DNA of 64,000 bases from Mesostigma viride (taxonomy: Eukaryota > Streptophyta > Mesostigmatophyceae > Mesostigmatales > Mesostigmataceae), in the NCBI GenBank assembly GCA_009746045.1, contig RPFO01000667.1, positions 3,771,273 through 3,835,272 of the forward strand, given 5' to 3'. Below, one piece after another: positions 3,070 through 64,000 of the stretch. Each line of letters begins with the position of its first letter. Position 1 is the first letter of the stretch. The position numbers and the translations under genes were made by a program. The notes under the pieces were generated by a model. The model saw nothing but the letters and a program-made list of their open reading frames with translations. It was not told where the DNA came from and searched no databases.

Positions 3070-3155
3070 GTGGCAGTGAGAGAAGCTAGTGCAAGCTAGT
3101 CGAGGGCACCCCCCCTCCTCGTTGTGTATAGGGTTTGAGGGTTCCTTTATTGGCA
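3070..3155 (-). promoter_or_regulatory. 3'-end element with poly(A) signal, GT29 gene
   Basis: About 70 nt downstream of the GT29 stop codon the minus strand reads GGTGCCAATAAAGGAA, with AATAAA at 3146-3151. This and the following sequence (ACACAACGAG, then a G-rich run, TAGCTT and, slightly further on, GGCCACAGA..GGACTC) is also found downstream of the peroxiredoxin gene at about 23,967-24,070, in the same orientation relative to transcription. It is either a shared 3'-UTR module or a repeat carrying a poly(A) signal. Confidence 0.65.
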
Positions 3156-3217
3156 CCGCTGGACGCAGTCATGTGCTTATAATTTATCTGCTGAGCTATT
3201 GCACTGATCGAAGCTGT

Positions 3218-6200
3218 TTAATGGATATATAGAGGGTACCCCTCCCCCAGCAGCTGGTACGCGTAGATGGCGAAGTCAAAAGAATGATGTTCTGTGACAC
3301 CCTGCAACGCAGAAGACCGGGGGAATGCAAGGCAAAAGTGCGCAGGGAGTGCCATTGCAAAACGCCCTTGTGAGTATCCCGCAAACTTTTTTATATACAC
3401 GACGCCGAGCTTCTCTGCAAACAAATGCATCGGATGCATGAGACAAGCGGAATACAACCACCAAGGAGAATGGCTTGTGAAGCGGTAGCATCGCTTGCGT
3501 TCATGCAGCAGGCAAGCTAAGTCAGAAGCAAAAAGTTAATATAGCAGCAAAGTTCTTGCCTGCTGCCTGGCTTGCCTTGTATGTCTGATAGCACATTGAT
3601 TGCTATAGTTGTGTTAGATATGCACATCATATCCATGTTTGAAACCTGACTTCACCCAGACATGCCCAACATTTGATGGGTAAAAAAAGGAATCAGGGGA
3701 GCTCCGGTTAAAACCTTGCGGCAAGTTACAACAAGGGAGCTTTCTGAGCACCCAGTTAGCTAGCTGCATCTATGCCCGAAACGGATGATTGATTTCCCAG
3801 TCAGCCCGTGGTAGGCTTCATTGAAACCCGAAAATGCCAAGTGTGAAACCAACAATCCTCTTAGCGCTGACGTGACGTGCACAGAATGAATGGCAGAACA
3901 TGCCCATTGCCCATTATTGACAAAATATGAACAAGGTAATTACCTTATAGGAAATAGACTTGTCTTACCTATTGTAACGGCAGAGTACAATAAGCACTCC
4001 AGAAAAGTCACAGAAACACGACTACTAGCAATCCCAACCATAGTCATAACAAGCCAGGATTGCACCCTTTGGGTTGCAACACATCGTTTGTATAGATATA
4101 GCCCGGAATCCCTTTGCCACTCGGCTCTAAGGATCCGGATCGCGCATAAACTTAGGTCACCAGCGAGTGGTTATGCTGGATAGGTATTGGTCCAGATCCT
4201 TAGAGCTGAGCGGCAAAAGGATTCTAGGCAACATGTAAACTAACGCATATCCCTTATGACAGTTGTTTACCTGGTCAAGGTTTTAGGCTTTCTGTTTCCA
4301 GACCTCCTCTTTGTCAAAGTAACCACAGGGCCAGCTATGTTTACGCAACCGGACCCTGGCAAAGAAGTGATGGGGATAGTTAAGCTTACCCAACTTGATG
4401 AAATGAAAGCAATTGTAGGGTTACCTACGACCATGCACCTCAGCTTCATGGAATAAAAGATTAAATTTGAGGAAGGTGGGGTAAGTTATGTCCACGCACC
4501 TCCACTTTGTCAAAGTAATGATAGGGAGCCTTTGCCGTCTTCTTTGACACGTAGGCCTCAAAGCCGTAAAGGTGGACCTCGTTGCAAATCTGCGGGGCAC
4601 GCACGCATAGCATGCCACACCATGCCGTGCCATGTCATGCCATGCCGTGCCGTGCCGAACCATGCAAAAGTACGCAAGTATGAATTAGTAGCCCCAAAAC
4701 CGGAAAGGAGGCGGATGGCACGGTGCATTCAGTTGTGTGGATCCTTACTTGTGCATGCGCAAACTTGTCATTTGAAGGCAATTCTAAGAACTGTGGTTGT
4801 AGACGAACAAGCACATCCCAGCAGACAGAATGCCCGCGCACTCTACAGGCACTTTGTGGTACCTGTATTGATGAAAGACACGTGTACATACTAGTTTCAC
4901 ATACTAGTGCACTGTACCGATGATGGACTATACAGTGGGCACTGCGGGGTCACTATACATTCCCGTCGGTGTGTCGGTACAGTGAATCCATCCATTTCCA
5001 GTGCTCCAAACTAATTAGGAGAATTGTGGTATACGCATCGATAAATCACACAGTGCATTAATCCATTTCCAGTGCTCCATTATGCCTAAGTGCTCCATCT
5101 TCAATGCTCCGCGATACATTGTACTGCACGGCTCATAGTGTGCCATATTACAGCCAAAAATACCTAATAAAATCGGTTTCTCTGAATATATATAATTAAC
5201 GCATGCGGGAAAGATAGGGCCGCTATGCCTTGGCCTGCATGTGGGAGGCTGTCTGCGACATGGGCTGACTAATTCGATCTGTACAAAGGGTTTCATGTTC
5301 GCCTGGATTTTCCTTGGGTGACCCGGTTGTTTATAAGGGTCCGTGGCTATTAATTAGTGGTCCGAGAAAATTAATTGTAGGTTTTATACGACTTGCTTGC
5401 AAAGATTCTTGTTTGGTTGCACCAGCTGAGGTTAGCTGGGGACCTGTAGGGTCGGCTGGCTGCTTAACGAATCTTTGACTGATTTTGGCTCTTTAGTGAG
5501 TCGTGATTAATTATTGTATAGTGGATTCGGACCGGCCCAAGGGGTCGATGGGCGAGTTTTATGTTTGTCAGTCTTGGGAACCTTGTACAACTACCTGTAC
5601 GGTTAACGCACTAGCCTGGGGGTGCGTGGCCATGTTGTTTGTAGTGGCGTTTTCACCACTGTTCAGGCCGGCATGTGACGCGTGCCTGTGTTACTTAATT
5701 TAGGATGATGTCAGCTTGTGTGTCGGCGGACCATGCCTTAAGCAAGCTAGGCAGGCAATGATCCACGATTGTTTCTTTCCCCTCCCTCCCACTCTGAAGG
5801 CTTCTTGCTTCCGCGTGCGGATTGAGAAACCACTGTTAACTGCTGCATTTGTGGCAGGGTTCCACTTATTGTATTCAATTAAATGCTGGTCTTCTTGGGA
5901 GCTTAGTGATCGTAAAAGTAGTACACAAATTCCGCCGTCTGCGTATCCTGTACATTGGTGCCCTCGTGCTATGAGCAGCGGGCATGCCACACCCATCTGT
6001 GCTTACTTCACGTACTGTACTGTATCATGCCTAGATTTCACCGCCCCAACAGCCTGTGCCTCCGTATCCTTGGGCAAAATCTTCCTTAATCTATACTTCT
6101 ATGTATTCGGGTGAAGCCTGCTCACAATCTTGCACTAGTACCATAACCAAACACCCCCCCTTATGTACATCTGGTTTCACCCTGTACTGGAAGCCAATTG

Positions 6201-9200
6201 TAGCTGCATAAGAAGACAGGGTCGTGCAGTACCCGCTCGCAGTCTCTCTATCACTCGACGCTTAAAAATGATCAATAGCCACTGATAATTCTATTCCAGG
6301 CACCCACTGAACCTGCATAAGAAACAGGATCACCGCGTAGACCCACACACAGTCTGGTAGTATTACCAGTAGTATTACCAGTAGTGTTACCAGTAGTGTT
6401 ATCAGTAGTGCTACCAGTAGTGTTACCAGACGTATTACCAGTAGTATTACCAGTAGTGTTACCAGACGTATAACCAGACGTATTACCAGTAGTATTACCA
6501 GTAGTATTACCAGTAGTATTACTAGTAGTGTTACCAGTAGTGTTACCAGTAGTGTTACCAGTAGTGTTACCAGTAGTGTTACCAGTAGTATTACTAGTAG
6601 TGTTACCAGTAGTATTACTAGTAGTGTTACCAGTAGTATTACCAGACTCTATCACCAGACACTCTCACACTCTCACAGACCATTACGGGGGCACTCTCAT
6701 ACATTTTCATTGCTTGCATCCTGTACCAGGCCACCAAACATGCACCCGGGAGGGTATCACTGATCGCATTCAACCCGCTCTTAGTCGCTACATTGCCCTC
6801 GCTACCTTCTTTGATCCGGGAGTTCAACATCTACTCTCATCCTATTGCAGTCGCCCTCCGCACCTGCATAAGAAATAAGATCACGTTGAACCCGGTCATA
6901 GTCTCCAGTGCCTTAACCATGATCGCTAATCATTTCCATACTATACCAAGCCCATCCTGAGCCCATCCCACCTGCATAAGAAAAAGAATTGCATAGAACC
7001 CGCTCATCGGCTTGTCGTGGTACTTTGTTGCATGGCGCCGCTCCATCTCGTCCTTAAGCTGGTTCCACAGGTGGAAGCTGCGGGCGACAAAGCCGGGGTG
7101 GAGGAAGTGGATGCGGTTCCCCCCGCTGGCGTACTTCTCCACGAGGGGGGCAAACAGGTTCTGTGGGCGGCAGCCAGACCAGCCAACGACAAAACCGCAG
7201 GCTCGCCACCCACCGCAAATCCGCCACAACGCCAGCCGGACCCGCCAGGTGGCACACCAGAGGGCACCAAAGCGGCAGGCCACCGCAAGCCGCATCGCCA
7301 TGAGGGACAAATGGCACACTATGTGAGGGAATGAAGGGCGGTGTTGTGCAAGGGCGCGTACGTGGAACCGAGCCAGACAGGTAAGGGGACAAAAAGGTTC
7401 TTCCAGGTAAGGCGCGGGGGTGGGCGTGGCACACAACGGTGTCGACAGCGGCAGAGGGTAGTCTCTTTCAAGAAAGATGCCCCATGGCGCAAACCGCAGT
7501 GTGTTGTTCGGGCGGGAAACAAAGGCAGTGCAGCGGGCCAACCTAATCAAAACGTGCTATCAGCTGTATCAACTTGGTCATCTTGCTGCAAACAAACTGT
7601 GGCTGACAGGCTGTGGACAACCGCTCCCAACTTTAATGAAGTTAGATGTGAAAAAAATTATTCAATTAAACTTATTCATTTAATCGAAATTCATGATATG
7701 AGACCGGCCTTAGCCTTTCCTCCCGGTTCGCGGGAGTTTTTTACTAACCCAGATTCCTATTCACAAGATATACGTGAGTTTAATCTGAGACTGGCCTTTG
7801 CGCTCACCTTGCGGTTGGTGGGCGACGAGAACTCGAAGAAGAGCAGCGTGGAGGGCGGACTGCGGAAGCGGAACCCCTTGGACGCATGCAGGATGCGGCG
7901 CGCGTTCTCCCCTGTGCATGCGCACATGATGTGTTTATTGATAAAATAGCAGTAATGAACTGATGGTCAACAAAAGATCTGCTGGACGCAGGTGCTCCAC
8001 ACACATGCTGATAGTCGCACAGACGACATGTGCACCCACCACCCATGAAGATTCTCTCCTGCACGCGCGCAGTTGTGTGTATCGATTAATTAGTTTGTCC
8101 ACATCAGTTGAATTTACTCGCACAGAAGACACTCACGGTTGCAGAAATGACCCGTAGTCATAATGGACTCTCATGGTCGCAAGAGCCACTCCCTGTTGCA
8201 AACACCTCGGTGGCGGTGGCAGAACACAAATGACACTCCCAGTCGCAGGAAACGAGAGCACTACCGGTTGCAAAAGCCGGTCAAGCCACAAGAACTACTC
8301 ACAGATATAAACGCCACTCATGGGTGCGAACGCCACTAACGATTGCAAATGCCGCTCACCATTCCTGACCTTACAGTCCCAGGGAAAACTCACGAACGCA
8401 AAATCGCTAACATTTGCACAGCTGCAAATATTACTCACGGGTGGATGGCTCAAGCTAAGCTCCATGGGAGTGCCTTCCTACCATGAGAAACAAATTTATT
8501 ACAATGAGTGTGTGCAGGCTTTATAGTAGACCCTAGCCACTCTATCAAAATCATTGTACAAATCATTGTCATGGCCCGGCCATTTCACCACGCTGAGGCT
8601 CAGCACATGCCTAGCTTGTCCCTCAAACAGCAGCATGCATTAGCGGGTGGGAACTGCAAAACGGCCTCCATACGTCCACCGCACCACGCGGTACATTCGT
8701 GTGCACAAATATCCACAAAAATAGCTTTAGATATCTGACAGTGCATCCAAGGCGCTGCCCCCCCTTTTGGTACTTGAACTACCACAAAATGGGGGGGGCA
8801 CGTACCACACTGGGGCACTCGGCACTACCAGCACACACAGCCGACCCCTCTACTCATGTCCAACCGTCATCAAGCACCGTACATGGTGTAAGTGACGGAC
8901 GGTAGAGCGACGCTGCAGGCTTCAGATCGGCCCCCTTTGACCCCGCCGCAAGCACCTATAAGTGAGCAGATAGCTCAACAATTGCAAACGCTGCCACCAC
9001 AAAGATAGCTCACGGTTGCAAAACTGATTCATAGGCACAAAAATCACTCGCGGTCACAAAAGTCACTCATGCTTGCAGATGTCGCAGACGCAGGCATGCT
9101 GCAACTCACGGTCACAAACATCGCTGATGGTTGCCAAAGTTGCAATCAGATGGATCACTCGCGATCGCAAAAATCAAAAGCACAGCTGCAAACTGCATCT

Positions 9201-12200
9201 GCAAAGTGAAACAACTCACGGTTGCAGAAGTCAAACGTGGTCTTCCTGCCCACGTCGTCCTCGTAGGGGTGCACGGGCGCGTAGTTAAAACGCAGGACCG
9301 CCTCATGGGCATCGATGGCCTTCTGTTGAGGGTTGAGGGTTGAGGGTGGGGCCCATTCGCCCCGCAACCAGGCACAGGGGAACGAGGGAAAGAATATAGC
9401 GCAGACTGACGAGCCAGAAGAGGCAAGTAGGACCGGTCACAGGATAGTGAGAGGAAACAAATAGCCCATGGGGGGACCCAAGGCAGGTATGTGGGGCCAT
9501 GCAGAAACATAACTACAATCATGGAAATACAACAGACATACAGTAAACGATGAAATCCATACTATGCAGAATATTGGACGTACAATGAGCACACGGCCAT
9601 GGTGGGGATGGGCGGGGGTGGGGATGGGCGGGGGTGGGGATGGTTGGGGGTAGGGATGGTTGGGGGTAGGGATGGGCGGGTGTGGGGATGGGGATGTGGT
9701 GGACACCACCACCGGCGGATAATAAAGCGCCCTTAGGCCATCAGCGCACGCATGCAAGCATCAGCGCACACACGTGGGCATCCTAACGCCTTGGCGGAGC
9801 CATCTCTCAAGTGGCGCTGACGTTCCCTCCCTCCATGGCCCCCTTGATACCTCCTTGCCAGAACCCCCTTCGCAACTGCTTGCGAGCACGCGCGGTGCCC
9901 CCTTGCCATGCGAAATGTGGCCCGCTGGATGCCCCTGCCATTCATGAATCTACCCACCTGTTAGAAACATACCTTGTTGTTTGCAGTTGCCACAGTAGCC
10001 CCTTCTGGCAAACCACTTCATCCCTTTCACTGTTGCACATGCTTATTTCGCGGCACTTGCATGCTATAAATTACAAGCATGCTTTGCTCATAATGCAAAG
10101 AGTAAAAGACACAAAATCAAGTTGCCCCCTCAGATTCCTAAACCGCCAATGAAGGAGGAGATCCGGCTCAGGGGCGAATACTTAATTATTTATAAGTGCA
10201 TGCTTGCTTAGTTAAAGCGAATGCTTGCTTAATCAAAAGCGAATGGTTGCTTATTTACAAGCAAGTTCTCTCTTACTTAGATGGGAGAGCTTGCATAATT
10301 TAAAGCAAATGCTTAATTATTTAAAAGCAAGTGCTTGCTTCATTAAAGTGGATGCTTGCATAATTAAGAGCGAGTGCTTGCACAATTAAAAGCGAATGCT
10401 TGCTTAACTAAGAGCGAGTGCTTGTTAAATTGAAAGAAAGTGCTTGCTTACTTAAAGCGAGTGCTTGCTTACCTAAAAGCGAGTGCTTGCTTACCCCACT
10501 CTTGGAGCGCAGCCAGGTGCCAGAGTTCCCTACTTAAAGCGGGTGCTTGCTTACCCCACTCTTGGAGCGCAGCAAGCTGCCAGAGTTCCCCACGACCGCG
10601 CACGACGCAAAGTGCCGCCGAGGGTGGTCCGCCGCCGGGAGGTGCTTGAGGAACGCCCTGGATGGCGTGGAGGATATCCGTGGCGCATGGTGCAGAGGGA
10701 CATGCCACCCATGCACAATTCGCAGAGAGGCATGTCACCCGTGCACATATGACAACAAGGTGTGCCATCCATGCAGATATAGCATAGTGGCATGTCATCC
10801 ATGCACATAGGGCAGAGAGGTGTGCCATCTATTGCACACAGGGCAAAGAGTTGCAGTGACCATGAGGCCAAATGGTGTCAGATTGCGCATTGAATGTATA
10901 CTATCACAGTAACAATGATTAGTATGCTATGGGCAGGTTGACAACACCCATAGTAATCCCTAGGACATGCACGAGTACACCCATAGTGATCCCTAGAGCC
11001 CGCACGAGTACCCCTGCAGCTGTCCTACCCAGACATTCAATCCATTTAAGTTTTCCTCCATTCACAGGCAAGAGACGGATGGTTGGACGCAGAAATGCTC
11101 AGATACACTCACAATGACACACAGACGCAGAACACAGAAGCCCCCAAGCCCCCAAGCCCCCAAGCCCCCAAGCCCCCAAGCCCCCAAGCCCCCAAGCCCC
11201 CAAGCCCCCAAGCCCCCAAGCCCCCAAGCCCCCAAGCCCCCAAGCCCCCAAGCCCCCAAGCCCCCAAGCCCCCAAGCCCCCAAGCCCCCAAGCCCCCAAG
11301 CCCCCAAGCCCCCAAGCCCCCAAGCCCCCGAGCCCCCGAGCCCCCACGCCCCCACGCCCCCACGCCCCCACGCCCCCGCGCCCCCACGCCCCCACGCCCC
11401 CACGTCCCCAAACCCCCAATCAGATAAACAAGACCAGCAAACGACACAATAACACAAGCACGCGAACACAACATCCTTCAAGGGTATTCCCACGCTGCAA
11501 CATTTTCCTAATCCGAGTGTACTTTTGAAAATGGTAATGGATCACAGCGGAACGTCCCCAAACCCCTGGCTGACCTCTCCAGGGTCATCTGCGAGTGCGA
11601 CGCCCCTGTCATGCTGAGGAAGTGCAGGATGGGCTCCTGGCCGCTGCTGGTGTCCACGGATGCGGACGACAGCACAACGGGGTCCTCATCTGGAACGATG
11701 GCCTGGGCTACGAACCACGCGGCCGTCTCTGGACAAAGGGGGTGCAGGGAGACATGTAGGAGCAGGAGATGGGGGCGCGGAGACTCGTTGGATAAAGATC
11801 CTGTGGCAAAGGATGTGAGGGAAAAGGGTGCTCTTTCGATGCGAAAAACTGGCCAAGGTGGTACGGTTGTAATTGTGAGGAAGGGCGGGTCATGGTGGAT
11901 GAAATCTCAGTGCATGCGCCATCTGGGGGAGGCAAATGTAGGGCTACAAAATTGAAAGGAAGATAATTAAATTTATAGTTGGTCAAGGTAGATGGGCCAA
12001 ATGGTGACGAACCAAGGCACGAGAGTTAAGGTATCAGACTGGTTAATTATTGAGTGAGTAGGTGAGGGAATGGGTGACTGGGGGAAGGGGGAAGAAGAGA
12101 GGAAAGAAAGGAGGGAGGGGGCAGTGGGCTCGTCAGGCAGGCAAGGAGGTTGCGACAACGCAAGTAAAGGAGGGAGGGGGCAGTGGGCTCGTCAGGCAGG

Positions 12201-15200
12201 CAAGGAGGACACGACAACGGAAGGGAAGGAGGGAGGGGGCAGTGGACTCGTCAGGCAGGCAAGGAGGACGTGACAACGAAAGTGATTGAGGGAGGGAGCG
12301 AATCGTCGGGGGGGCTGCGGGAGGGATGACGGGTGGGCAGGCGGCTGGAAGGTCACCTGAGAACCGCAAAACTACCTGACACACATACAGAGACGGAGAG
12401 GGAGGGAGGGAGGGAGGGAGGGAGGGAGGGAGGGAGGGAGGGAGGGAGGGAGGAGGGAGGGAGGGAGGGAGGGAGGGAGGGAGGGAGGGAGGGAGGAGGG
12501 AGGGAGGGAGGGAGGGAGGAGGGAGGGAGGGAGGGAGGGAGGGAGGAGGAGGGAGGGAGGGAGGGAGGGAGGGAGGAGGGAGGGAGGGAGGGAGGGAGGG
12601 AGGGGGAGGAGGGAGGGAGGAGGGAGGGAGGGAGGGAGGGAGGGAGGGAGGGAGGGAGGGAGGGAGGGAGGAGGGAGGGAGGGAGGGAGGGAGGGAGGGA
12701 GGGAGGAGGAGGGAGGGAGGGAGGGAGGGAGGGAGGAGGGAGGGAGGAGGAGGGAGGGAGGGAGGGAGGGAGGAGGGAGGGAGGGAGGAGGAGGGAGGGA
12801 GGGAGGGAGGGAGGGAGGAGGGAGGGAGGGAGGGAGGAGGGAGGGAGGGAGGGAGGGAGGGAGGGAGGGAGGGAGGGAGGAGGAGGGAGGGAGGGAGGGA
12901 GGGAGGGAGGGAGGGAGGGAGGGAGGGAGGGAGGGAGGGAGGGAGGGAGGGAGGGAGGGAGGGAGGGAGGGAGGGAGGGAGGGAGGGAGGGAGGGAGGGA
13001 GGGAGGGAGGGAGGGAGGGAGGGCAACTGCCCTTGGCCAAGGCATGTCACCCCCGTTGCAAGTCAAGGTGACGTCGGCACAGCCTCTGCTGCCCATAGAA
13101 GATGGAAAGGCCCCGCTGCACGATCAGAATCCTGAATCCATTAATCCCAGGAGTAAAGATGAATTGAAAAACAGAATGCGGTAACATGTTACCGGAGTAG
13201 TGCAAATGGGCAGCATGCCGCAGTACCAGCCCACACAGTACTGTATGCCAGCTGGACTCACGCCGCTAACCACGGGGACATGTGCCTGTCCTCGCATTGC
13301 AACAAATGCATTCAGGGGCGAGAAACCACCTCGTGAGGCAAGCTACTATTTCACGTACTTGCACCGCCGATGGCACTGCTGCCACCTCCTCCCGTGCTGC
13401 CACCTGTCACGCTGCCGCCACTGGACGAGCCTACCGTGCCGCCCCGGACAGCACCCTGGGTGGGGCTGCCCCCGCCTGTCGCAGCCATGGCCAGGAGGCC
13501 TTGATTAGAGTCCCCAGCATGTGATGCGGATCCAGCAGGCGTGTCGTCCCATGCTGATGCAGGCGTGTCATCCCATGCTGATGCAGGCGTGTCGTCCCCT
13601 GATGCCGCCCCGGTCACAGCATGCAGCCACGCACGCACATGGGTGAATGGCTATCACACACGTGGAAAGGGCCTGGGCATCAAAAAAGTCTCCACGATGG
13701 TAATTCGGTTCATCTACCCGAAGACTGCGTCACATGAGCATCAGTCCTCAGTGGGATGGGAGCGCGATGAGATGGATGGATCTAGCTGTCTAGCTTCTAG
13801 TTACTGGGGGATTGGATGGCCATCCTTACCACGACAATGTGAGCGTGGGAGGGATACAGGTGGATGCGTGGACATGAACGGGGGAAAGGGTTGCAGACAG
13901 GATGGGGCGGTACTGTAGGGAAGACGGTCGCAGACAGGATGGGGCGTCACAGTAGGGAAGACGGTCGCAGACAGGATGGGGCGTTACAGTAGGGAAGACG
14001 GTCGAGAAAGGATGGGGCATTACAGTAGGGAAGACGGTCGAGAAAGGATGGGGCGTCACAGTAGGGAAGACGGTCGCAGACAGGATGGGGCTGTACAGTA
14101 GGGACGACGGTCGCAGACAGGATGGGGCGTGACAGTAGGGAAGACGGTTGCAGACAGGATGGGGCTGTACAGTAGGGAAGACGGTTGCAGACAGGATGGG
14201 GCGTGACAGTAGGGAAGACGGTTGCAGATAGGATGGGGCTGTACAATAGGGAAGACGGTCGCAGACAGGATGGGGCGTCACAGTAGGGACGACGGTCGCA
14301 GACAGGATGGGGCGTCACAGTAGGGAAGACGGTCGCAGACAGGATGGGGCGTTACAGTAGGGAAGACGGTCGCAGACAGGATGGGGCTGTACAGTAGGGA
14401 AGACGGTCGCAGATAGGAGGGGGCTGTACAGTAGGGAAGACGGTCGCAGACAGGATGGGGCTGTACAGTAGGGAAGACGGTCGCAGACAGGATGGGGCGT
14501 TACAGTAGGGAAGACGGTCGCAGATAGGATGGGGCTGTACAGTAGGGAAGACGGTCGCAGACAGGATGGGGCTGTACAGTAGGGACGACGGTCGCAGACA
14601 GGATGGGGCATTACAATAGGGAAGACGGTCGCAGACAGGATGGGGCTGTACAGTAGGGACGACGGTCGCAGACAGGATGGGGCGTCACAGTAGGGAAGAC
14701 GGTCGCAGACAGGATGGGGCGTCACAGTAGGGAAGACGGTCGCAGACAGGATGGGGCTGTACAGTAGGGAAGACGGTCGCAGACAGGATGGGGCGTTACA
14801 GTAGGGAAGACGGTCGCAGACAGGATGGGGCTGTACAGTAGGGAAGACGGTCGCAGACAGGATGGGGCTGTACAGTAGGGACGACGGTCGCAGACAGGAT
14901 GGGGCATTACAATAGGGAAGACGGTCGCAGACAGGATGGGGCTGTACAGTAGGGACGACGGTCGCAGACAGGATGGGGCATTACAATAGGGAAGACGGTC
15001 GCAGACAGGAGGGGGCTGTACAGTAGGGACGACGGTCGCAGACAGGATGGGGCGTCACAGTAGGGAAGACGGTCGCAGACAGGATGGGGCGTTACAGTAG
15101 GGAAGACGGTCGCAGACAGGATGGGGCGTTACAGTAGGGAAGACGGTCGCAGACAGGATGGGGCTGTACAGTAGGGAAGACGGTCGCAGATAGGAGGGGG

Positions 15201-16653
15201 CTGTACAGTAGGGAAGACGGTCGCAGACAGGATGGGGCGTCACAGTAGGGAAGACGGTCGCAGACAGGATGGGGCGTTACAATAGGGAAGACGGTCGCAG
15301 ACAGGATGGGGCGTCACAGTAGGGAAGACAGTCGCCGACAGGATGGGGCTGTACAGTAGGGAAGACGGTCGCAGACAGGATGGGGCGTTACAGTAGGGAA
15401 GACGGTCGCAGACAGGATGGGGCTGTACAGTAGGGAAGACGGTCGCAGATAGGAGGGGGCTGTACAGTAGGGAAGACGGTCGCAGACAGGATGGGGCGTC
15501 ACAGTAGGGAAGACGGTCGCAGACCGGATGAGGCGTCACAGTAGGGAAGACGGTCGCAGATAGGAGGGGGCTGTACAGTAGGGAAGACGGTCGCAGACAG
15601 GATGGGGCGTCACAGTAGGGAAGACGGTCGCAGATAGGAGGGGGCTGTACAGTAGGGAAGACGGTCGCAGACAGGATGGGGCGGTACAGTTGGGACGACG
15701 GTCGCAGACAGGATGGGGCATTACAATAGGGAAGACGGTCGCAGACAGGATGGGGCGTCACAATAGGGAAGACGGTCACAGACAGGAGGGGGCTGTACAA
15801 TAGGGAAGACATTGTCAGTGGGGGACGCATGACCGCACGCGAAAATGCCCGTGGGATATCACAAATTATGTCTGTGGCCTATTTGCAGCGCGTCCCTCTG
15901 CCATCTGTCACCTTTACGCGCATGCAGGGGCCCCTCACACACCATGATAGATACTACATCGCCATGCCTGGGAGGAAATAGGGGGTTGCTTTGCGAAGCC
16001 GTAGAGCATCATAACTGGAAGGGAATATTACGACTGGAAGGACATACCATCACTGGAAGGAAGTAGGGTGGTTAGGAGGGGATAGTACCATAGGGCGGGA
16101 GAAAAAGAAATTCTAGTACACTGTCAAAAGTATGTGGCTTTCCTAGTATTCTGAGGTGAGTTACCATCGACGAACCATGTAAGGTTGTCGGCACGTTGTA
16201 TACCGAATCAGGAAGACATGCTGCTTTGGGGAGTTCTGAGGGGGCCAAGGGAGCTTAGGATGGCAGTGGTGGTGGCAGGGCAAGGGGCTTCGCCATGCGC
16301 GGTCTCATGCTTTAAAGTCCGGACACCTCCCCTCCAGTGAACATGGACTGGGTTTGTCAGAGGGGGGGAAGGGAATCCCGTACATCCAGCAAGAGCCAGT
16401 GTAGTGCCCCGTTCCAAATAACGCTACTAGCGAGCGATGCTGCTTTTACCAAAACCTCTTTATGAGCAGCAACCACGTCCAGGAACGGAAAAACATCATT
16501 TGTCTTACCGGTTAAGCTGTTCGAAGATGTAGTCGGGCGCAGAGACGAAGGCTGCGAGGTTGGTGTGCTCGGCAGGTATAAGAGTGTGCGTAGTATGACA
16601 ACCACTAGGGCGACAGCGAGGAGTAGGCGCACGGACCGAAGCGGACTGGTCAT
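3218..16653 (-). CDS. GT29 sialyltransferase-like protein, 9 exons, complete
   Basis: I rebuilt this gene from exon to exon. Exons (minus): 16653-16509, 13598-13359, 11728-11575, 10657-10555, 9322-9220, 7911-7808, 7160-6972, 4589-4500, 3301-3218. They total 1,212 bp (403 residues plus TAA), all phases agree and every intron is GT..AG. Residues 3-27 form a type II signal anchor after MTSPLR; a Ser/Gly/Asp-rich stem follows. Sialylmotif L starts at C199 ([16 protein letters not shown], then [14 protein letters not shown] and DVGRKTT). Sialylmotif S spans exons 7-8 ([14 protein letters not shown], then [10 protein letters not shown] with C348), motif III is YHYFD at 369-373, and motif VS is HHSFDFA at 381-387. 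The two cysteines that pair in the family are present. The VS glutamate (H-x4-E) is replaced by alanine, so acceptor, donor or activity may differ. It is expected to be a Golgi-lumen transferase. Exons 4-9 are anchored by motifs; exons 1-3 rest on phase and composition. An in-frame ATG at 16689 is an alternative start. Confidence 0.9.
4103..4226. repeat. long imperfect hairpin
   Basis: CCTTTGCCACTCGGCTCTAAGGATC near 4110-4137 is matched by an imperfect inverted copy near 4192-4222, with about 55 bp between. It lies in intron 8 of the GT29 gene and may be a small MITE remnant. Confidence 0.5.
4291..4526 (-). repeat. copies of the exon 8 donor region (GT29 intron 8)
   Basis: The true exon 8/intron 8 junction has CTTTGTCAAAGTAA at 4505-4518 just inside the exon. 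The same 14 bases recur at 4309-4322 with the adjacent CCTC of the junction, and a second partial copy of the donor sequence (CATGCACCTCAGC) is near 4433. Both extra copies lie in the intron, downstream of the donor. Confidence 0.7.
4604..4660. repeat. CATGCCGTGC-type short tandem repeat
   Basis: Degenerate 10-bp repeats of the type CATGCCRTGC lie in intron 7 of the GT29 gene just upstream of exon 8. Confidence 0.6.
4910..4984. repeat. 75-bp inverted-repeat element
   Basis: CACTGTACCGA at 4910-4920 is perfectly inverted as TCGGTACAGTG at 4974-4984. It lies in intron 7 of the GT29 gene and could be a very small MITE; no target duplication is obvious. Confidence 0.45.
6203..6983 (-). repeat. 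copies of the exon 7 end in GT29 intron 7, with a 12-bp minisatellite
   Basis: The exon 7/intron 7 junction (exon ends at 6972) contains ACCTGCATAAGAAA on the plus strand at 6970-6983. Exact copies occur at 6862-6875 and 6311-6324, a close one at 6204-6215, and the neighbouring exon bases (AACCCGCTCAT) are also copied near 6770 and 6890. Between 6355 and 6655 lies a 12-bp minisatellite, AGTAGTRTTACC, of about 25 units. Open frames through it (NTTG repeats) are artefacts of the multiple-of-three unit. Confidence 0.8.
8120..9226 (-). repeat. donor-derived degenerate repeats, GT29 intron 5
   Basis: The exon 5 donor reads ACTCACGGTTGCAGAA on the plus strand at 9214-9229. An exact 16-base copy is at 8131-8146, and many diverged ones (CACTCACGGTTGCAAAAG-like, spaced roughly 24-27 bp) fill 8120-8460 and 8960-9213. 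The segment in between looks unique. The copies point the same way as the real donor. Confidence 0.8.
9597..9705. repeat. G-rich minisatellite
   Basis: Units of the type TGGGGATGGGYGGGGG lie in intron 4 of the GT29 gene. Consecutive G runs could form G-quadruplexes on the plus strand, which is the non-template strand for leftward... reading genes only in the antisense sense; the transcript itself would be C-rich. Confidence 0.7.
10170..10554 (-). repeat. donor-derived minisatellite, GT29 intron 4
   Basis: The exon 4 donor and the next intron bases are GTAAGCAAGCA (TGCTTGCTTAC on the plus strand at 10544-10554). The same 11-mer occurs exactly at 10484-10494, 10462-10472 and 10441-10451, and diverged units of about 24 bp with TTAATTA spacers continue to 10170. 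The last 45 bp of exon 4 together with the donor are also copied once, at about 10484-10530, so a second plausible donor follows the first by about 60 bp. Confidence 0.85.
10690..10830. repeat. 30-bp tandem repeat, ~5 copies
   Basis: Units of the type CATGTCACCCATGCACATA followed by an AGAGG-like end repeat about every 30 bp in intron 3 of the GT29 gene, next to the acceptor of exon 4. Confidence 0.75.
11138..11416. repeat. 8-bp (CCCCCAAG)n array, GT29 intron 3
   Basis: About 24 pure CCCCCAAG units are followed by CCCCCACG variants. The edge of the array contains ACGTCCCCAAACCCC (11402-11416), which is identical to 11552-11566, the sequence 9 bp inside intron 3 from the exon 3 donor. The array therefore looks grown from donor-proximal sequence. 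The minus strand, which is the sense strand of the gene, is GGGGG-rich and can form G-quadruplexes in the transcript. Confidence 0.85.
12107..12290. repeat. 59-60-bp tandem repeat, ~3 copies
   Basis: GGGCAGTGGGCTCGTCAGGC recurs near 12119, 12178 and 12238, with AAGGAGG following. It lies in intron 2 of the GT29 gene next to the GGGA array. Confidence 0.8.
12393..13023. repeat. (GGGA)n homopurine array, 630 bp, GT29 intron 2
   Basis: GGGA tetranucleotides are interrupted by occasional GGA triplets. The plus strand is pure purine, so the pre-mRNA made from the minus strand carries 630 nt of (UCCC)n. Long open frames here (Pro/Ser on minus, Glu/Gly/Arg on plus) are simple-repeat artefacts. Confidence 0.97.
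13535..13600 (-). repeat. 24-bp repeat inside GT29 exon 2
   Basis: Three near-identical 24-bp units (CATGCTGATGCAGGCGTGTC) encode DDTPASAW-type repeats in the stem region of the sialyltransferase-like protein. The unit is a multiple of three, so the frame is kept. Confidence 0.7.
13726..13810 (-). repeat. LINE 3' tail remnant
   Basis: The segment GACTGCGTCACATGAGCATCAGTCCTCAG and the following bases match the 3' tail of the RTE-like LINE in minus orientation. It lies in intron 1 of the GT29 gene directly before the 37-bp array. Confidence 0.65.
13886..15810. repeat. 37-bp minisatellite, ~52 copies, GT29 intron 1
   Basis: The unit is CAGTAGGGAAGACGGTCGCA followed by GACAGGATGGGGCGTCA, about 52 tandem copies. 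Variation is concentrated at a few sites: CGTCACA/CGTTACA/CTGTACA/CATTACA, GGAAG/GGACG, and ACAGGATGG/ATAGGAGGG. Because 37 is not a multiple of three, open frames through it cycle through all phases and are not genes. The similarity of CTGCGACCG in the unit to CTGCGCCCG near the exon 1 donor is suggestive only. Confidence 0.97.
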
Positions 16654-17884
16654 CTCCTTAGACTGCTGACCATGAATGGAAGCCAGCATTTGTAATCATT
16701 GCCCTGTGCGCTGCTCAGGGGTCGCCGCTATCTCGTGGATGCATGTCCCCATTTGCTGATCACGACTCGTGATGCATGCATCTTCGTTTTTGGGTACAGA
16801 AATAGTGCCTGCTTGGAACGCGCTGCAGCGCAAGTAAGAAAGGCGCCGCAAATATAGCAGTTTGTAAACTGTCGCCCTACTTCGTTTCTAGGTGCAACCA
16901 CGCCTGTGTCACAACAATAAGCCACACTCTACTTGCATGCATTACTTCGTTTTTCGAGCCCAATCACGAACGCAGAAACATACAGCATTTGTGGTGAGTC
17001 CTGACCTTTTAATTCACGCTGTGGACATTGGGTATATAAGTGCGGGGCATTTTTTTCCATTCGCAAATCGGGTTAGAGGATAATTAACTGGTGACGCCAT
17101 GGATGGCGAACACTTTTTCGCCCCTTAGCGTCCTGCCACGTGACAAACAGCTGGTTGACCAGCTGTTGTTGTTGTTGTTGGTTAATGGACTGTTAACCCC
17201 TGGTCATGGTTACCAACGCCGCACATGGGCAGAGATTTTGAAACGGCCGAGGGATGACAACTGAAGGGCTCTGATTTTTATTCTGCATGCGCAACCTCCG
17301 AACTCATTACTCATGTTACATAGTAGAAACCACTCACTAGGAAGAATAACTACTATTTTTAGTATAAAAAGTTCACAGCCGGTACCGATGCTAGTAGCTT
17401 TGATGGAGCCAGCACGACGGAGGAATTAGTGCCCACTGTCCTCTGCCCATCGGTGCCATGGCGCCAGTAGCGGTAGGGTAAAAATCCTGTCACCTTCCTG
17501 CTATGGTCGATCATACTGTATGTCACTTCGACTGTTGACATAAATGCTCAGTTTCTCTGGGCGGTCGAAAGGGAAAGCCGGATTTAAGCTCGGATGTTGG
17601 CTTGGGGCATTGCTTTTCTTGAGAGGACTAGGACAGAGAATTAATTAGTTGTTTGAATTGTCTAATTGACGAGACCCACTAGCTAGGGTTTCCTTGGCCC
17701 TGCCAATTGCTGCAATTAGGAGCCAAGTGCAGCGCCAGCATTGAGTTGACTGGTATAGAAGCAGATGTGATATGGCAAAAGACTACAAGTGACGACGTGT
17801 TTTTAGAAAGAGAGCTCTGTGTGGAAAGTTGCAAGAAAAAAAATTGGTACGGGCCCGCCGTCCTCAGTGATACTTATACAGATC
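16654..17884. promoter_or_regulatory. divergent intergenic region, GT29 and peroxiredoxin
   Basis: The two complete genes face away from each other across 1.23 kb. TATAAAAA at 17363-17370 and TATATAAG near 17033 on the plus strand are possible TATA boxes for the peroxiredoxin gene, though distant from its ATG. A copy of the (GTT)n/CCGCACATGGGCAG repeat sits at 17166-17260. No coding signal was found. Confidence 0.4.
17166..17260 (+). repeat. (GTT)n-CCGCACATGGGCAG repeat, copy 1
   Basis: A short GTT run, then ACGCCGCACATGGGCAGAGA and AACGGCCGAGGG. Related copies are at 35,073-35,150 (plus), 48,765-48,850 (minus) and 55,757-55,815 (plus). Confidence 0.65.
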
Positions 17885-20800: not shown

Positions 20801-23109
20801 GCTAGAAAAAATTGGGTTGTCTTGCAAAGCTGTAGGGTCGGCTTGGTACGCAAGGTCTATGCAGTCCCTGGGATGTACCCCCTGCAGGTTTGGGATGTAC
20901 ACCAGCTTCTTCACGCGTGCTATCCGAATCCCTTTCGGTGCCGGAGGTCTGGCACACCCTGGGGCCCGGCTGCCTGGGTTGACCCACAAAAATGGCACCT
21001 GTGCGCTATCAAATACGACACCTGTGCGCTATCATTAGATCATGCTGCATCCTGTGCTAGTCTGGCTATCGATATCCTGTTCAATGAGCAAGTCAAGTGT
21101 CAAGTTGGAGGGGCTTCATTATCATTAGGTAGACCATGGTGGCTGCGATGGATGCCTCAGTCAGTGCCTTGTTGGTCCCGCTGGTCCACTGGCATGCCAC
21201 AAAGCAGGGCAAGGCTGCCAGGGCAGTGCAGTCGCCAGAGACAAATGGGGACAGACATGCATGGTAGAGGCTGATGGGGGAGGGCTGGGTGGGGGAGATG
21301 CGGATGCGTTCGTGGTAGTGCAGGGTGACGTCGCATGGGTTCGTCAGTTGTAGTGGCTCGCATGTCCAATAGATTTCTGGACTGTGGCACCCATCAGGAT
21401 TCTCTTCGCTGACAGTGGCTGGGGATCCACTGCTTTGCAACTGGCAAACCCTACCTCAATACGGCTACGGGGGCTGTGAAGGGGCCTGGCTTGCGATATT
21501 GTTGTGGTGGGATCCCACTGCCCTCACTATGGTTACTGTGATGGATTACGGCAGGGATGAGTGGCTTCCCACAACTAAGGGGCCTGGCTTGCGATAATGT
21601 TTTGGTGGGATCCCGGGTCCTCTGGTAGGACTTTCCTGGCTCTGTGAGTCGACCGCCACAGGCTCTCCCTTATTCTCGCCTTCTTATCACCTCTCGTCTT
21701 CGCCTCTCCTTTGATTATCCGCACGCCCGGGGCGCTGTGCGCCCTGTTGTTCGAAGTGGGTAATGTCTCATGGTACATGGTGGGTGCCATTGCATGGGTT
21801 CACCCTGTTCTTCCGGCATGCTGCGCTTGTGGTGCGGCGTGATCACCCGTTGCTGGTGCTGGCGGACGGAGTCTCACCTCCCTGGTCCATGGATGCTGTC
21901 TTCTGAAACATGGTTTGTGCCCCCTTGTCCTCACCAGGTGCTGATGCTGGCCGACGGGAGCGCCCAATTGGCCAAGGCGATGGGGGTGGAGTTGGACCTG
22001 GAAGAGAGAGGTGAGGTCTCCCGGTGCATGGTTACTCAGAGCATGTGCTGCTGCTATAGCTCCAACATACTGTCTTGACGCTTGTTGTGGGGTGGACTAG
22101 GAGGAGGGAGATGGGTGATGGTGAGGGGATGTGGTGGACAAGAGGTGGTGGAGCGGTGCAATGACCAAGGGTTGGGAGGTTGGGTTGACGACGGACAAGC
22201 GACGATGGACGCGGGTTGAGTAATGACCAAGCGGTTTGGGATGGCAGAACAGGGGGTGTAATTGTGTTAAGACCAAGGGGGGGTGACGGACGATTGAGTC
22301 GCTGCATGGTGGCTGGTACCTGCTGCTATATGGTTACGTCGCCCTATGCATGGTCGCTGGTGCCTGCTGTTGTAAGTGTAGCTGTTCAGTGCATACTGTG
22401 GGATATTGCTGGGTGGAGCGAGGTGAGTGATGCTCGCTCGATTAATGCCTTCCTGCATGCATTGGGGCCATTGAGTGGCTACACGTGACGCCATCTGCCC
22501 TACTTACAGTTTGAACTTTTATGGCCTGGACATAATGACGGCAAAGCGTGCGTGGCGAGTATCAGACAGCACCAATTAGGAATTAGCCAGCAAAGGCCAT
22601 TGATACCATTTTATGAAACCACGTCATTGGCAATTATCATGGTAGCATGCTGCCCCTACTGTGGTCCCTTGGCGTCACCCTGTCTGGATGCCATGGAGCA
22701 CGAAATCCTGGGTCCCCACCAGACTGACCTATCACACAAAGCATCCAAAACCTTCTTCCTGGGTGTAAACTATGGCATGTGCTCGTGCATGACTGGTAGC
22801 TGCTGCGCTGTTGCATCATTTCTACGATAGACCTGTCCCTCAACTGCTGACTGCCTGTCACTCAATTGCTACATGGACAACATGTCATGTTGTCCATGTA
22901 AATGTTGTCCATGCATAATTAAGGTTAAGATGGTATCGTTTCATTCTCTGCTGTGGACGTATGCTCATGCGCATGCTGTCGCAGGTCTCGGGCTGCGCTC
23001 GCGTCGCTATTCGATGATACTTGAAGATGGCATCGTGAGCACTCTTTTCTTGGAGGAAGGAGGCAAATTCGAGAAGAGTGGGGCACCGGATATCCTCAGC
23101 GCACTGTGA
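17885..23109 (+). CDS. type II peroxiredoxin (Prx5/PrxII), 6 exons, complete
   Basis: This enzyme reduces H2O2 and alkyl hydroperoxides using thiol donors. Exons: 17885-17908, 18125-18224, 18350-18430, 20570-20652, 21938-22010, 22985-23109 (TGA at 23107). They sum to 486 bp, 161 residues; every junction is GT..AG and phases match. Exon 1 encodes only MTIDVGDK, matching the start of cytosolic plant PrxII, so no targeting peptide is predicted. The peroxidatic cysteine is C50 in PGAFTPTC; the second cysteine, C75 in [11 protein letters not shown], has the spacing of the resolving cysteine in plant PrxII. Other family blocks are [35 protein letters not shown] and the C-terminal [13 protein letters not shown]. 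The donor of exon 3 (GTCTGT) is weak. Intron 3 (2.1 kb) holds a MITE, and a 39-bp minisatellite begins at the stop codon. Identity is near certain. Confidence 0.95.
18080..18100. repeat. (TA)n microsatellite
   Basis: A short TA run in intron 1 of the peroxiredoxin gene, about 25 bp before the acceptor of exon 2. Confidence 0.9.
18508..18595. repeat. (ATTCC/GTTCC)n pentanucleotide repeat
   Basis: CCATTCCGTTCC-type units in intron 3 of the peroxiredoxin gene. Confidence 0.85.
18630..18880. repeat. degenerate ~40-bp repeat, peroxiredoxin intron 3
   Basis: Units built on GAGGACGTGTTCCTTTGATG and TGGCCCTTATTCGTTCC recur about every 40-60 bp, with deletions. No link to the exon 3 junction is visible. 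Confidence 0.7.
19245..19692. mobile_element. MITE with perfect 33-bp terminal inverted repeats
   Basis: The first 33 bp (19245-19277, starting CCGTAGTGGTCAAAATC) are perfectly inverted at 19660-19692, and a TA dinucleotide flanks both ends, which fits a TA target duplication of Tc1/mariner-type transposases. The element is 448 bp, non-coding, and sits inside intron 3 of the peroxiredoxin gene. Its interior repeats TTCATTTTGGGTCGCAAA twice and holds a 12-bp perfect hairpin (19501-19530). The perfect inverted repeats suggest recent insertion or strong selection on the ends. The superfamily call rests only on the TA. Confidence 0.85.
21480..21615. repeat. direct repeat, peroxiredoxin intron 4
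   Basis: AAGGGGCCTGGCTTGCGATA followed by a TTGGTGGGATCCC-like segment occurs twice, near 21478 and 21575. Confidence 0.7.
21838..21960 (+). repeat. copy of the exon 5 start upstream of its acceptor
   Basis: TTGCTGGTGCTGGCGGACGGA near 21851 resembles the true exon 5 beginning, CAGGTGCTGATGCTGGCCGACGG at 21935. It is an intronic copy of an exon edge, here on the acceptor side, about 90 bp upstream. Confidence 0.6.
22011..22380 (+). repeat. donor-proximal repeats, peroxiredoxin intron 5
   Basis: The first 45 bp of intron 5 contain GGTGCATGGTTACTC and TGCTGCTGCTATA. Related copies are near 22301-22336 (CTGCATGGTGGCTGG, CTGCTGCTATATGG) and 22346-22376 (ATGCATGGTCGCTGG, CTGCTGTTGTAAG). Confidence 0.6.
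22871..22913. repeat. perfect 13-bp hairpin plus third arm
   Basis: ACATGGACAACAT (22871-22883) and ATGTTGTCCATGT (22887-22899) form a hairpin with a GTC loop; a third ATGTTGTCCATG follows at 22902-22913. It lies in the last intron of the peroxiredoxin gene, 70 bp before the final exon. Confidence 0.8.
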
Positions 23110-23958
23110 TTCTTATCATGAAAAGCACGTGACGCAAGCGCGCTATGATTCTTATCATGAAAAGCGCGTGACGCAAGCGCGCTATGATTCTTATCATGAA
23201 AAGCGCGTGACGCAAGGCGCGCTATGATTCTTATCATGAAAAGCGCGTGACGCAAGCGCGCTATGATTCTTATCATGAAAAGCACGTGACGCAAGCGCGC
23301 TATGATTCTTATAATGAAAAGCGCGTGACGCAAGCGCACTGTGATTCTTATCATGAAAAGCACGTGACGCAAGCGCACTATGATTCTTATCATGAAAAGC
23401 GCGTGACGCAAGGCGCGCTATGATTCTTATCATGAAAAGCGCGTGACGCAAGCGCGCTATGATTCTTATCATGAAAAGCACGTGACGCAAGCGCGCTATG
23501 ATTCTTATCATGAAAAGCACGTGACGCAAGCGCACTGTGATTCTTATCATGAAAAGCACGTGACGCAAGCGCACTATGATTCTTATCATGAAAAGCACGT
23601 GACGCAAGCGCGCTGTGATTCTTATCATGAAAAGCACGTGACGCAAGCGCGCTGTGATTCTTATCATGAAAAGCACGTGACGCAAGGCGCGCTATGATTC
23701 TTATCATGAAAAGCACGTGACGCAAGCGCGCTATGATTCTTATCATGAAAAGCACGTGACGCAAGCGCGCTATGATTCTTGTCATGAAAAGCACGTGACG
23801 CAAGCGCGCTATGATTCTTATCATGAAAAGCACGTGACGCAAGCGCACTGTGATTCTTATCATGAAAAGCACGTGACGCAAGCGCGCTATGATTCTTGTC
23901 ATGAAAAGCACGTGACGCAAGCGCGCTGTGATTCTTATCATGAAAAGTACATCACCGC
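23096..23958. repeat. 39-bp minisatellite starting at the peroxiredoxin stop codon
   Basis: About 22 tandem copies of a 39-bp unit run from the last codons of the peroxiredoxin gene (AGCGCACTGTGATTC encodes Ser-Ala-Leu-stop) to 23,958. Every unit keeps GCGCRCTRTGATTC followed by TTATCATGAAAAGCACGTGACGCA. The unit is a multiple of three, so open frames exist on both strands, but occasional 40-bp units (CAAGGCGCGC) break them. If transcribed it is the 3' UTR. Each unit has a CACGTGACGCA segment that also occurs in the LINE 3' hairpin. Confidence 0.95.
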
Positions 23959-23966
23959 ATCACGTG

Positions 23967-24072
23967 GGTGCCAATAAAGGAAACTTCAACCCTTATTATA
24001 CACAACGAGAAGGAGGGAGGGCGCCCTTAGTAGCTTCTCTTGCTACCTCAAGCGGGCCACAGAGGACTCCAC
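23967..24072 (+). promoter_or_regulatory. 3'-end element with poly(A) signal, peroxiredoxin gene
   Basis: GGTGCCAATAAAGGAA with AATAAA at 23973-23978 directly follows the 39-bp array. It shares about 105 bp, with small gaps, with the 3' end of the GT29 gene (3050-3155, minus), including ACACAACGAG, TAGCTTCTC and GGCCACAGAGGACTC. Confidence 0.65.
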
Positions 24073-61948: not shown

Positions 61949-64000
61949 TCACCACCACCGGTCATGACCTTTGTCCTCTCCCCCTTGCCCCCGTAGCCGT
62001 TGCCGCAACCCCTCCCCTTCCGCCTCCTCCCCCCCCACCTCGCCCTTCTGCCCCGTGGGAGCGTTATCCCGCCTCGCACCCCTCTTTCCGCCGTCACCCC
62101 CCTTTAATGACTCCAGGGTGGCCAAGATGCTCCTCAGGGCGGCCGGGTCCGGTGGTATATCTGCCGGCACCGACAGCGTGACAGGTTGCGGTATCTTGCT
62201 AAAGTTGATCCCCAGATCTTCCATCGCGTCCTTGATGACATAAAACAGGGCCATCTTGTGTGTGGATAGCGGGCCCGAGTCCTGGAAGGTGCCCCTGTGG
62301 CTGAACCACAGCTCGTACGTCGCTTTGTGGTTATCCTCCACCCCCGTGAGGACCATGCGGAAGATGGGCCCGAACCACGTCTGGTTCACCGCCATGAAGG
62401 CCTCGACCTTGTCCTGGAGCGTACCGATCGCCTCGATCGACGTGGACCACGGGAGGCAGAAGGTCACGCACTCCCACAGGTCCTTGCTGCGCCGGTGGTT
62501 GACGATGTTCTTGGTCGACAGCAACATGGTGGGCATCGTGACCAGTCGGCCGTCCGTGCCGTGCATCGTGCAGGACCAGATGCCGATTGCCGCCACCTGG
62601 GCGCGGGGGTGGTGACATTGTTTTCGCAATATGGTGATGCAATGCATGAAAATGCAGGAAAGTCAGCTCGATGAAAAAACTGTGCTTGTGCACTTAGGGG
62701 ACCGCTCCCAATATCCTCTTCCCACTATTCCTTTTTATTTTGGGGGGGGAAACCCCCGACGTGCAAAGTGGAGTGGCCAAACCTAGAGGCTGCTGCAGGA
62801 AGCATGCGCATCAACATGTGAGGTGTCTTCAGCCCCCCAAATCCCTCAACGTGAGCAATGTTGCCATCAGCTGCTATGGACTGGATATAGTACAGCCACG
62901 AGGCGCTGTCCAATGAGACATTCGTAGCCATGCACCGGGGGCGCTGTGGCCATATCTGGCACGGCAGGTCCCCCTGCCCTGTCTGCTGTGCACCCCAGAT
63001 ACTTGCACGCCACTGGGTATGCACGGTAGTATTGCTGAGGAATGAAGGGAAAAAAAAAGAGAACAACCCTCGAATGCTTGTACCCAGTCCCGCCCAGAAA
63101 AACAGTGTTTTAACCAGGCAGCCAGACTAGGAATCGGACTATCGGTGATCGAATGTACATGTATGTGCATAATTGCCACCACACGAAGCGGCGAATCACT
63201 CAGCACGCGACATGGGCTTCCCACGGAAGACAGGCACAGGCACCCACATTCCAAAGCAGTGCTTTCCCACTCACACAGTAACACTTGTTCACTCATGCAG
63301 CAGTGCTTGCCATGGCGGTCAAGCACAGGCATCTAACTCACAAAGCGACGATGACACCCAACTGCAACCTAGTACTTCCCACCCATTCAAACTAGGATGC
63401 TTTTCTATCCACCAAAGGGCTCGCCATGGCAGGCAAGCACAGGCATTCCAAGTTATGACAAGATGATAGCCAGCTCACAAACCAATGCCCGCCTGCTCAT
63501 AAAGCCGCACCTGCATCTAACTGACAAAGCAGTGCTAGCACACTCACACAAGAACGCTTACAAAGCAAGCCGTGCCCAGTCGTATCAGGTCAAACCTTTC
63601 CATTACAGACTAATGCTGTCACCCTCTCGCAAAAAAGTGGCACGTACAGTATCCTACTATGCTGGTTGCCCACTCGCAGAGTATTGCCCACTCGCAGAGT
63701 AGTGCTTGCCTATTAATTAAAGCGTAATGCTGCCACCCACTCAAAACGTAGCGCGATTCCTACAGAGCAACTCACAGAGTAGCGCTTGCTCATTCCTACA
63801 GCAACTCGCCTATTGCTACATTAGCTCACAACATAGTGATTGGCATGAGAAACACTATGCTACCGTACCTCAACAATTCAGTGCTTGCCTATTTCTACAG
63901 TGACTCACGATATAGTGCTTATCCTCAATCTCCACGCGATCGCCCACGTCAAACGGGTGCACCAAGAACAGGAACAGGAGCGCCTCAAACAGCATGCGCA
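61949..64000 (-). CDS. MscS-like mechanosensitive channel, last two exons (partial)
   Basis: The penultimate exon runs from beyond the window to 63,909 (FEALLFLFLVHPFDVGDR, VEIEDKHYI) and has a perfect donor GTGAGT. The last exon is 62,596-61,949 after an AG at 62,597-62,598. The junction is phase 0 and joins two halves of the MscS domain: DVGDRVEIEDK continues with IGIWSCTMHGTDGRLVTMPT, STKNIVNHRRSKDL, ETFCLPWS-like strands, PIFRMVLTGVEDNHKATYEL and HRGTFQD. This is the order of plant MSL proteins (VHPFDVGDR, then YPNS/IxNxxRS). The C-terminal ~50 residues are Gly/Arg/Glu-rich and end HDRWW. It should be a tension-gated membrane channel. N-terminal membrane helices lie outside the window. 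The 1,312-bp intron is filled with repeats. Confidence 0.88.
62600..63925 (-). repeat. donor-derived repeats in the MscS-like intron
   Basis: The donor junction reads GACTCACGATATAGTGCTTA on the plus strand (63,902-63,921). Diverged copies of the type CTCACARAGTAGTGCTTGCC recur through the intron, clearest at 63,660-63,850 (AACTCACAGAGTAGCGCTTG, CACTCGCAGAGTAGTGCTTG, GCTCACAACATAGTGATTGG) and weaker at 63,170-63,560. Confidence 0.7.

Follow-up and report, generated by a model that had tools for sequence, protein, structure and literature searches.

The question raised by this locus is whether introns grow by repeatedly copying their own exon end together with the splice donor, as a sequence-only reading had proposed, or whether ordinary tandem duplication suffices. 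The analysed stretch, hereafter the window, comprises 64 kb of eukaryotic DNA with 0 ambiguous bases, and tandem repeats are abundant across it (43 TRF rows, some of them overlapping). Three gene models were used. The GT29 (sialyltransferase-like) gene has eight coding exons with GT-AG introns, which after splicing give a 335-aa open frame that matches Glyco_transf_29 (Pfam PF00777, 5.1e-35) over residues 105-316, and the exon borders 4/5, 5/6 and 7/8 fall within gap-free protein alignment to a solved sialyltransferase; the exon 2 implied by the earlier numbering, a putative exon, is unnecessary for the open frame. The peroxiredoxin gene (+ strand; Pfam Redoxin, 1.2e-32) has five located exons and a coding end at 23109, and its 5′ end was not found in the 64-kb window. 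The MscS-like gene (- strand; Pfam MS_channel_2nd, 8.7e-12) is truncated by the window end; MscS-like genes are not known from animals. The TFIIA gamma gene (49508-49831) is one uninterrupted open frame, unlike its intron-rich neighbours.

The 12 introns of these three models form the test set, and they come from the same locus where the pattern was first seen. In the plain 40-mer test, the junction 40-mers of all 12 introns were compared with 100 dinucleotide shuffles of their own intron. In the junction-forced score, applied to 11 of the 12 introns (the 125-bp peroxiredoxin intron being omitted), the match must cross the junction, with a threshold of 26 or more. The features on which the analysis relies are collected in Table 1.

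Table 1. Gene model and boundary-related repeats in the window (positions are those of the window).
Feature	Position	Strand	Basis or remark
GT29 (sialyltransferase-like) gene	3218..16689	-	Spliced frame, Pfam match, gap-free borders against solved sialyltransferase
GT29 coding exons	16689-16509, 11728-11575, 10657-10555, 9322-9220, 7911-7808, 7160-6972, 4589-4500, 3301-3218	-	
GT29 intron 3, 15-mer	11566-11552 (intron +8..+23) and 11416-11402	-	Second at edge of 8-bp array 11138-11419; junction excluded
GT29 intron 4, tandem duplication over exon 4/donor junction, 60 bp, 1.9 copies	10476..10590	-	TRF
GT29 intron 4, array of ~22-bp units starting at the donor, in phase with donor GT	10201..10493	-	TRF; autocorrelation peak 22
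GT29 intron 5, exon 5 end and donor	8131..9242 (original 9242-9214, copy 8159-8131)	-	83%
GT29 intron 5, copy of exon 6 acceptor junction, -38..+7	8052..8093	-	76%; score 26, P 0.016
GT29 intron 6, marginal copy of exon 6/donor junction	7696..7734	-	75%; score 28, P 0.033; absent from the earlier reading
GT29 intron 7, diverged units with pyrimidine-rich exon 7 end TTTCTTATGCAG	6140..7007	-	
GT29 intron 8, single copy of exon 8 end and GT, -27..+2	4302..4330	-	86%; 196 bp from true donor
MscS-like intron, copy of exon end and donor	63805..63841 (original 63920-63884)	-	78% over 37 bp; P 0.016
Peroxiredoxin intron exC-exD, acceptor-junction copy including 20 exon bases	21843..21869	+	85%; upstream of true acceptor 21937/21938
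39-bp minisatellite (21.7 copies) whose start overlaps the last 12 bases of the peroxiredoxin coding sequence	23098..23947	+	TRF; non-splice boundary

The five exact words on which the sequence-only reading was built were all recovered by exact search, namely the 15-mer of intron 3 (at 11402 and 11552), the 11-mer of intron 4 (10441, 10462, 10484 and 10544), the 16-mer of intron 5 (8131 and 9214), the 14-mer of intron 7 (6311, 6862 and 6970) and the 14-mer of intron 8 (4309 and 4505). Copies that span the donor junction are present in GT29 introns 4, 5 and 7 and in the MscS-like intron, with intron 6 as a marginal case. Hence, of the five GT29 introns for which copies of the junction or of the first intron bases had been claimed, introns 4, 5 and 7 carry junction copies, intron 3 repeats a word without the junction, and intron 8 barely qualifies, since its copy comprises 27 exon bases and only 2 intron bases and therefore falls outside the 5/11 junction-forced set (its donor 40-mer gives P 0.0099 against dinucleotide shuffles).

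The structure of these copies differs between introns. In intron 4, the 60-bp duplication covers about 37 exon and 23 intron bases with 54/60 positions identical in register, reaches a junction-forced span score of 84 with the copied junction at 10494, and adjoins the ~22-bp array, in which GT is kept in 3/12 scored units. Intron 5 contains 12 degenerate units (at 9172...8146, including the 8159-8131 copy), each with at most 6 mismatches to the 18-mer spanning its junction and five of them keeping GT; the mean in mono-nucleotide shuffles is 0.46, the other 11 introns hold 0 or 1 each, and the lag-19 autocorrelation has a z of 5.8. The unit of intron 7 (original 7007-6961) recurs at 6899-6853, that is 108 bp on, at 6330-6311 and near 6218, where it reads CAGCT, and the repeat region encloses a 12-bp minisatellite (6357-6645). 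The same behaviour had been attributed to the MscS-like intron and to peroxiredoxin intron 5; it is found in the former, whereas the latter is weak and which intron was meant is uncertain, the exD-exE donor giving a junction-forced score of 21 (P 0.033) and P 0.059 in the 40-mer test. A 22-bp period suspected by eye in the MscS-like intron is not borne out by autocorrelation, which is strongest at lags 114, 112 and 85. A search for RNA genes within the introns gave no tRNA and no Rfam match at gathering scores.

Compared with shuffles and with other introns, the copies clearly exceed chance. Four of the 12 donors (introns 4, 5, 7 and 8) and two of the 12 acceptors scored above every shuffle in the 40-mer test, and the junction-forced score gave own-intron copies (26 or more) for 5/11 donors and 2/11 acceptors; the acceptor of GT29 intron 6 lies above all shuffles in the former test (score 24) and fails the latter. 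At the same threshold, no match was found in the 110 pairs of a donor with another intron of the window, nor in the 110 corresponding acceptor pairs, and in reverse orientation the junction-forced score gave 0/11 donors and 0/11 acceptors. Scored against the intron just upstream in its gene, no donor exceeded 17 (eight pairs), and the own-intron versus cross-intron difference is significant for donors (Fisher P 2.3e-6) and for acceptors (P 0.0076). The copies are local, direct, intron-specific and beyond chance. The proposal that introns grow by copying of the exon end and donor is thus partly upheld. The argument that the pattern is too consistent for chance holds against shuffles and cross-intron pairs, and less clearly against the repeated intron interior (P 0.15 in the 40-mer test, 0.06 in the junction-forced test). 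In addition, the downstream position and common direction of the copies, which had been taken as the sign of a mechanism, say little, as both follow of necessity from every tandem duplication that occurs within an intron.

Indeed, the intron interiors are themselves highly repeated, with 28% of 2,552 interior 40-mers scoring 30 or more elsewhere in their own intron. Against this rate, 4/12 donors compare with 2.28 expected in the 40-mer test (P 0.15), and 5/11 with 2.54 expected in the junction-forced test (P 0.06). The donor excess over the interior is about two-fold, with P ranging from 0.001 to 0.17 according to threshold and control: over thresholds 20-33, P is 0.013-0.17 with the two-sided interior control and 0.001-0.067 when copies on one side only are counted, and once short-period arrays are removed, P is 0.033 at threshold 26 and 0.10 at 30. 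The comparison with neighbouring positions depends on where the neighbours are taken. Donors do not exceed positions +100..+300 (5 versus 3.88 expected, P 0.29; range 0.21-0.54), and they outnumber positions +30..+100 (5 versus 1.33 expected), for which the P value is untrustworthy since there are only about three points per intron, mostly with zero rates (0.12 of 33 points repeated). Along the introns, the repeat profile peaks at the junction (3-5/11 from -12 to +18), dips to 0-2/11 at +24..+66 and reaches 2-6/11 from +78 on, with 0-3/11 in the last 240 intron bases. On the exon side it falls to 0/11 by 36 bases into the exon, and only 2/311 exon-interior 40-mers score at least 30, both from the intron 4 comparison. 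By intron fifth, from 5′ to 3′, the repeated fractions are 0.34, 0.31, 0.16, 0.15 and 0.17 of points (11 introns, equal weight), so that repeats are about twice as frequent in the 5′ two fifths as in the remainder. A 5′ bias of intron repeats is therefore likely, and in this set of 11 introns a preference for the junction itself is at most a possibility.

These data bear directly on the idea of a process tied to the donor, such as strand slippage or transcription-coupled breakage around the 5′ splice site, which would preferentially duplicate junctions and thereby seed minisatellites. Such a process would account for the two-fold excess over the interior, for the local peak above the following 30-100 bases together with the general 5′ bias, and for the donor 40-mers of introns 4, 5 and 8, which outscore 98-100% of the interior 40-mers of the same intron. 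Nevertheless, we consider it unlikely, as the excess comes from 11 introns of the very locus that first drew attention to the pattern, gives P 0.05-0.17 under the two-sided interior control (thresholds 26-33), and vanishes against positions +100..+300. Moreover, other boundaries are copied too.

Acceptors, which in the junction-forced test stand at or below the interior repeat level, are copied in 2/11 introns as opposed to 5/11 for donors, a difference without statistical significance in these 11 introns (P 0.375 by the exact McNemar test, 0.36 by Fisher). In addition, the units of the 39-bp minisatellite carry versions of the last peroxiredoxin codons and the stop, with a span score of 84 at the stop boundary, which makes one of six coding-start and coding-end boundaries with strong copying; the GT29 start boundary scores 20 and the other four score 0, including the MscS-like stop at 61949. 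The acceptor copies and the stop-codon copy mean that a donor is not required. Thus, since the interior is repeated, acceptors and a stop codon are copied, and donors do not differ significantly from acceptors, donor-specific seeding is not established.

Our results rather suggest that plain tandem duplication, which the borders of coding sequence can tolerate, probably accounts for most copies, and no special splice-site copying would then be needed. These introns are rich in minisatellites and tandem duplications, and according to this explanation some of the founding duplications straddled a coding exon/intron edge by chance. A straddling duplication would be harmless as long as splicing keeps the outer, original site, and the extra exon end and donor would become silent intron, free to drift or to be multiplied through unequal exchange or slippage. 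Whatever its length, a duplicated segment can be placed over the junction in as many ways as over a given interior point, so that, if junction-spanning duplications are harmless, junctions and interior should be copied at about the same rate. We infer that the copies are neutral and that the first donor continues to be used. The gap-free protein alignment at borders 4/5, 5/6 and 7/8 points to the exon as the source for introns 4, 5 and 7, and the exon sequence would then be older than its intronic copies.

The tolerated-duplication explanation was explored by simulation with a model and settings of our own choice (four settings, 60 introns per setting). In these runs, donors were copied at rates of 0.33-0.83, acceptors at 0.22-0.87 and the interior at 0.25-0.88, with a donor/interior ratio of 0.94-1.39, beside observed rates of about 0.45, 0.18 and 0.23, respectively. 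A second simulation (two settings, 200 introns apiece) gave 0.47/0.31/0.36 and 0.24/0.17/0.22 for the donor, nearby positions and positions further in, that is, a post-junction dip milder than the observed one; contrary to observation, it also put acceptors level with donors (0.46 and 0.26). The 5′ bias of intron repeats is accounted for neither by this model nor by plain neutrality.

The fate of the splice signals speaks on whether selection could instead be retaining the copied donors, be it as decoy or spare splice sites or for recursive splicing. Among the 31 listed donor copies, GT is kept in 13 and lost in 18, and donor function is not visibly maintained in the copies. The first copy to keep GT lies beyond an in-frame stop both in the MscS-like intron and in GT29 introns 4, 5, 7 and 8, and its use would consequently truncate the protein. 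Some sequences do look suited to such a role: the strong donor ACCGTGAGT occurs three times in intron 5 (original included), CAGGTGCGG in intron 7 scores 7.1 versus 4.8 at the true site (with a PWM built from only 12 donors), and some intron 7 units read pyrimidine tract-CAG|GT, as a recursive splice point might. However, with GT kept in so few copies of introns 4 (3/12) and 5 (5/12), and with the GT-keeping copies of GT29 and of the MscS-like intron sitting behind in-frame stops, retention by selection is very unlikely.

An assembly artefact or a wrong exon model deserves slightly less credence still. Long arrays assemble poorly and the exon models derive from the genomic sequence, but divergence of the junction copies amounts to about 10-25%, and residues 105-316 of the 335-aa GT29 product fall within the family match. 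Finally, dispersed mobile introns (introners) or transposon fragments can practically be dismissed as the origin of the copies, for although transposon-like frames and dispersed repeats are present in the window, the copies occur in their own intron only and none of the 110 cross-intron pairs within the window reached a score of 26.

Tolerated duplication at boundaries has a close counterpart. The sequence-only reading knew of no named process, but the lancelet "mirages", minisatellites overlapping exon-intron borders, match (excerpts of PMC3087553 and PMC3902484). In these excerpts, mirages are described as direct tandem repeats with units of 10 to ~160 bp, located at both 5′ and 3′ boundaries in several genes per genome, with AG/GT signals in many but not all copies, with splicing reported as normal and with a repeat length that is unstable between haplotypes or somatically; the excerpt of PMC3902484 gives 60- and 108-bp cases in PGBD5 and also cites troponin C. 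The likeness extends to boundary-spanning direct repeats at the donors of GT29 introns 4, 5 and 7 and of the MscS-like intron, to the acceptor boundaries of peroxiredoxin exC-exD and GT29 intron 5, to the duplication of both boundary types (5/11 donors and 2/11 acceptors, at a score of at least 26) and to splice signals retained in part of the copies (GT in 13/31). In contrast to mirages, the acceptors and the MscS-like donor show few copies and no long arrays here, the copies are mostly more diverged than the 81-100% given in the consulted excerpts for one lancelet globin, and the pattern occurs in another eukaryote, in several introns of one gene, with a structure known from one sequence. 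Among the matches listed in the literature, no mirages beyond lancelets were found, only related human and potato cases. It is improbable, in our judgement, that introns in this genome grow preferentially from their 5′ ends by a transcription- or splicing-linked duplication of junctions, with mirage arrays as a general growth route outside lancelets.

Boundary repeats in other genomes may have other outcomes. In genes of human segmental duplications, minisatellites (~30 bp, ~4 copies) can overlap exon-intron boundaries (excerpt of PMC2812944), and such repeats in human and potato can also create introns (excerpts of PMC2812944 and PMC4974935). In the human segmental-duplication genes novel introns and alternative splicing are possible, whereas the true sites here are probably unchanged. 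Likewise, Rogers 1989 and Hellsten 2011, as described in an excerpt of PMC4974935, proposed that tandem duplication across an intron-exon boundary gives rise to a new intron; a boundary-crossing duplication is common to both situations, but there an intron arises and here existing introns lengthen. In the Rogers model, the new intron is flanked by two copies of a segment that used to be exonic. No intron-lacking relatives were found among prokaryote and viral contigs, where 23 and 1 pattern matches, respectively, were obtained and none was confirmed. Introners produce related copies across introns of many genes (excerpt of PMC9860276). Such cross-gene copies were not found here, with 0/110 donor/other-intron pairs in this window. 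The human IFI6 (6-16) minisatellite reportedly has units with multiple splice donors beside the exon end, and these donors are said to be used; donor-bearing units near an exon end are thus common to IFI6 and the present locus, but IFI6 is a single human gene with donors in reported use.

The novelty seems to lie in the setting and in how densely such copies occur: donors are copied across several introns of a single gene and in one intron of a second, and acceptor and stop-codon copies are present in a third gene, all within one window of another eukaryote. Boundary-straddling duplication may therefore be a common and mostly silent route of intron lengthening, which would also supply spare splice signals. 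Should the donor excess hold genome-wide, what is now an anecdote would become a mutational bias open to testing.

Several other repeats of the window should be mentioned. The first modelled GT29 intron contains a 37-bp minisatellite of 52 copies (13882-15810) and a 626-bp tetranucleotide tract (12398-13023), and TRF detected a perfect 163-bp tandem duplication at 37603-37926. Two inverted copies of a non-LTR retrotransposon-like element (635-2371 and 24177-25887), 95% identical over 1.7 kb, carry open frames that by eye resemble reverse transcriptase. Direct 346-bp repeats (41814-42159 and 47625-47969), 98.8% identical, lie around long open frames, and the pair looks like a young LTR retrotransposon. 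Lastly, the exact 15-mer GTGCCAATAAAGGAA is common to the 3′ regions of GT29 (3142-3156, - strand) and peroxiredoxin (23968-23982, + strand), with 2 matches (at most 2 mismatches) versus 0.07 expected and flanks alike by eye, and is possibly a shared polyadenylation element or a repeat.
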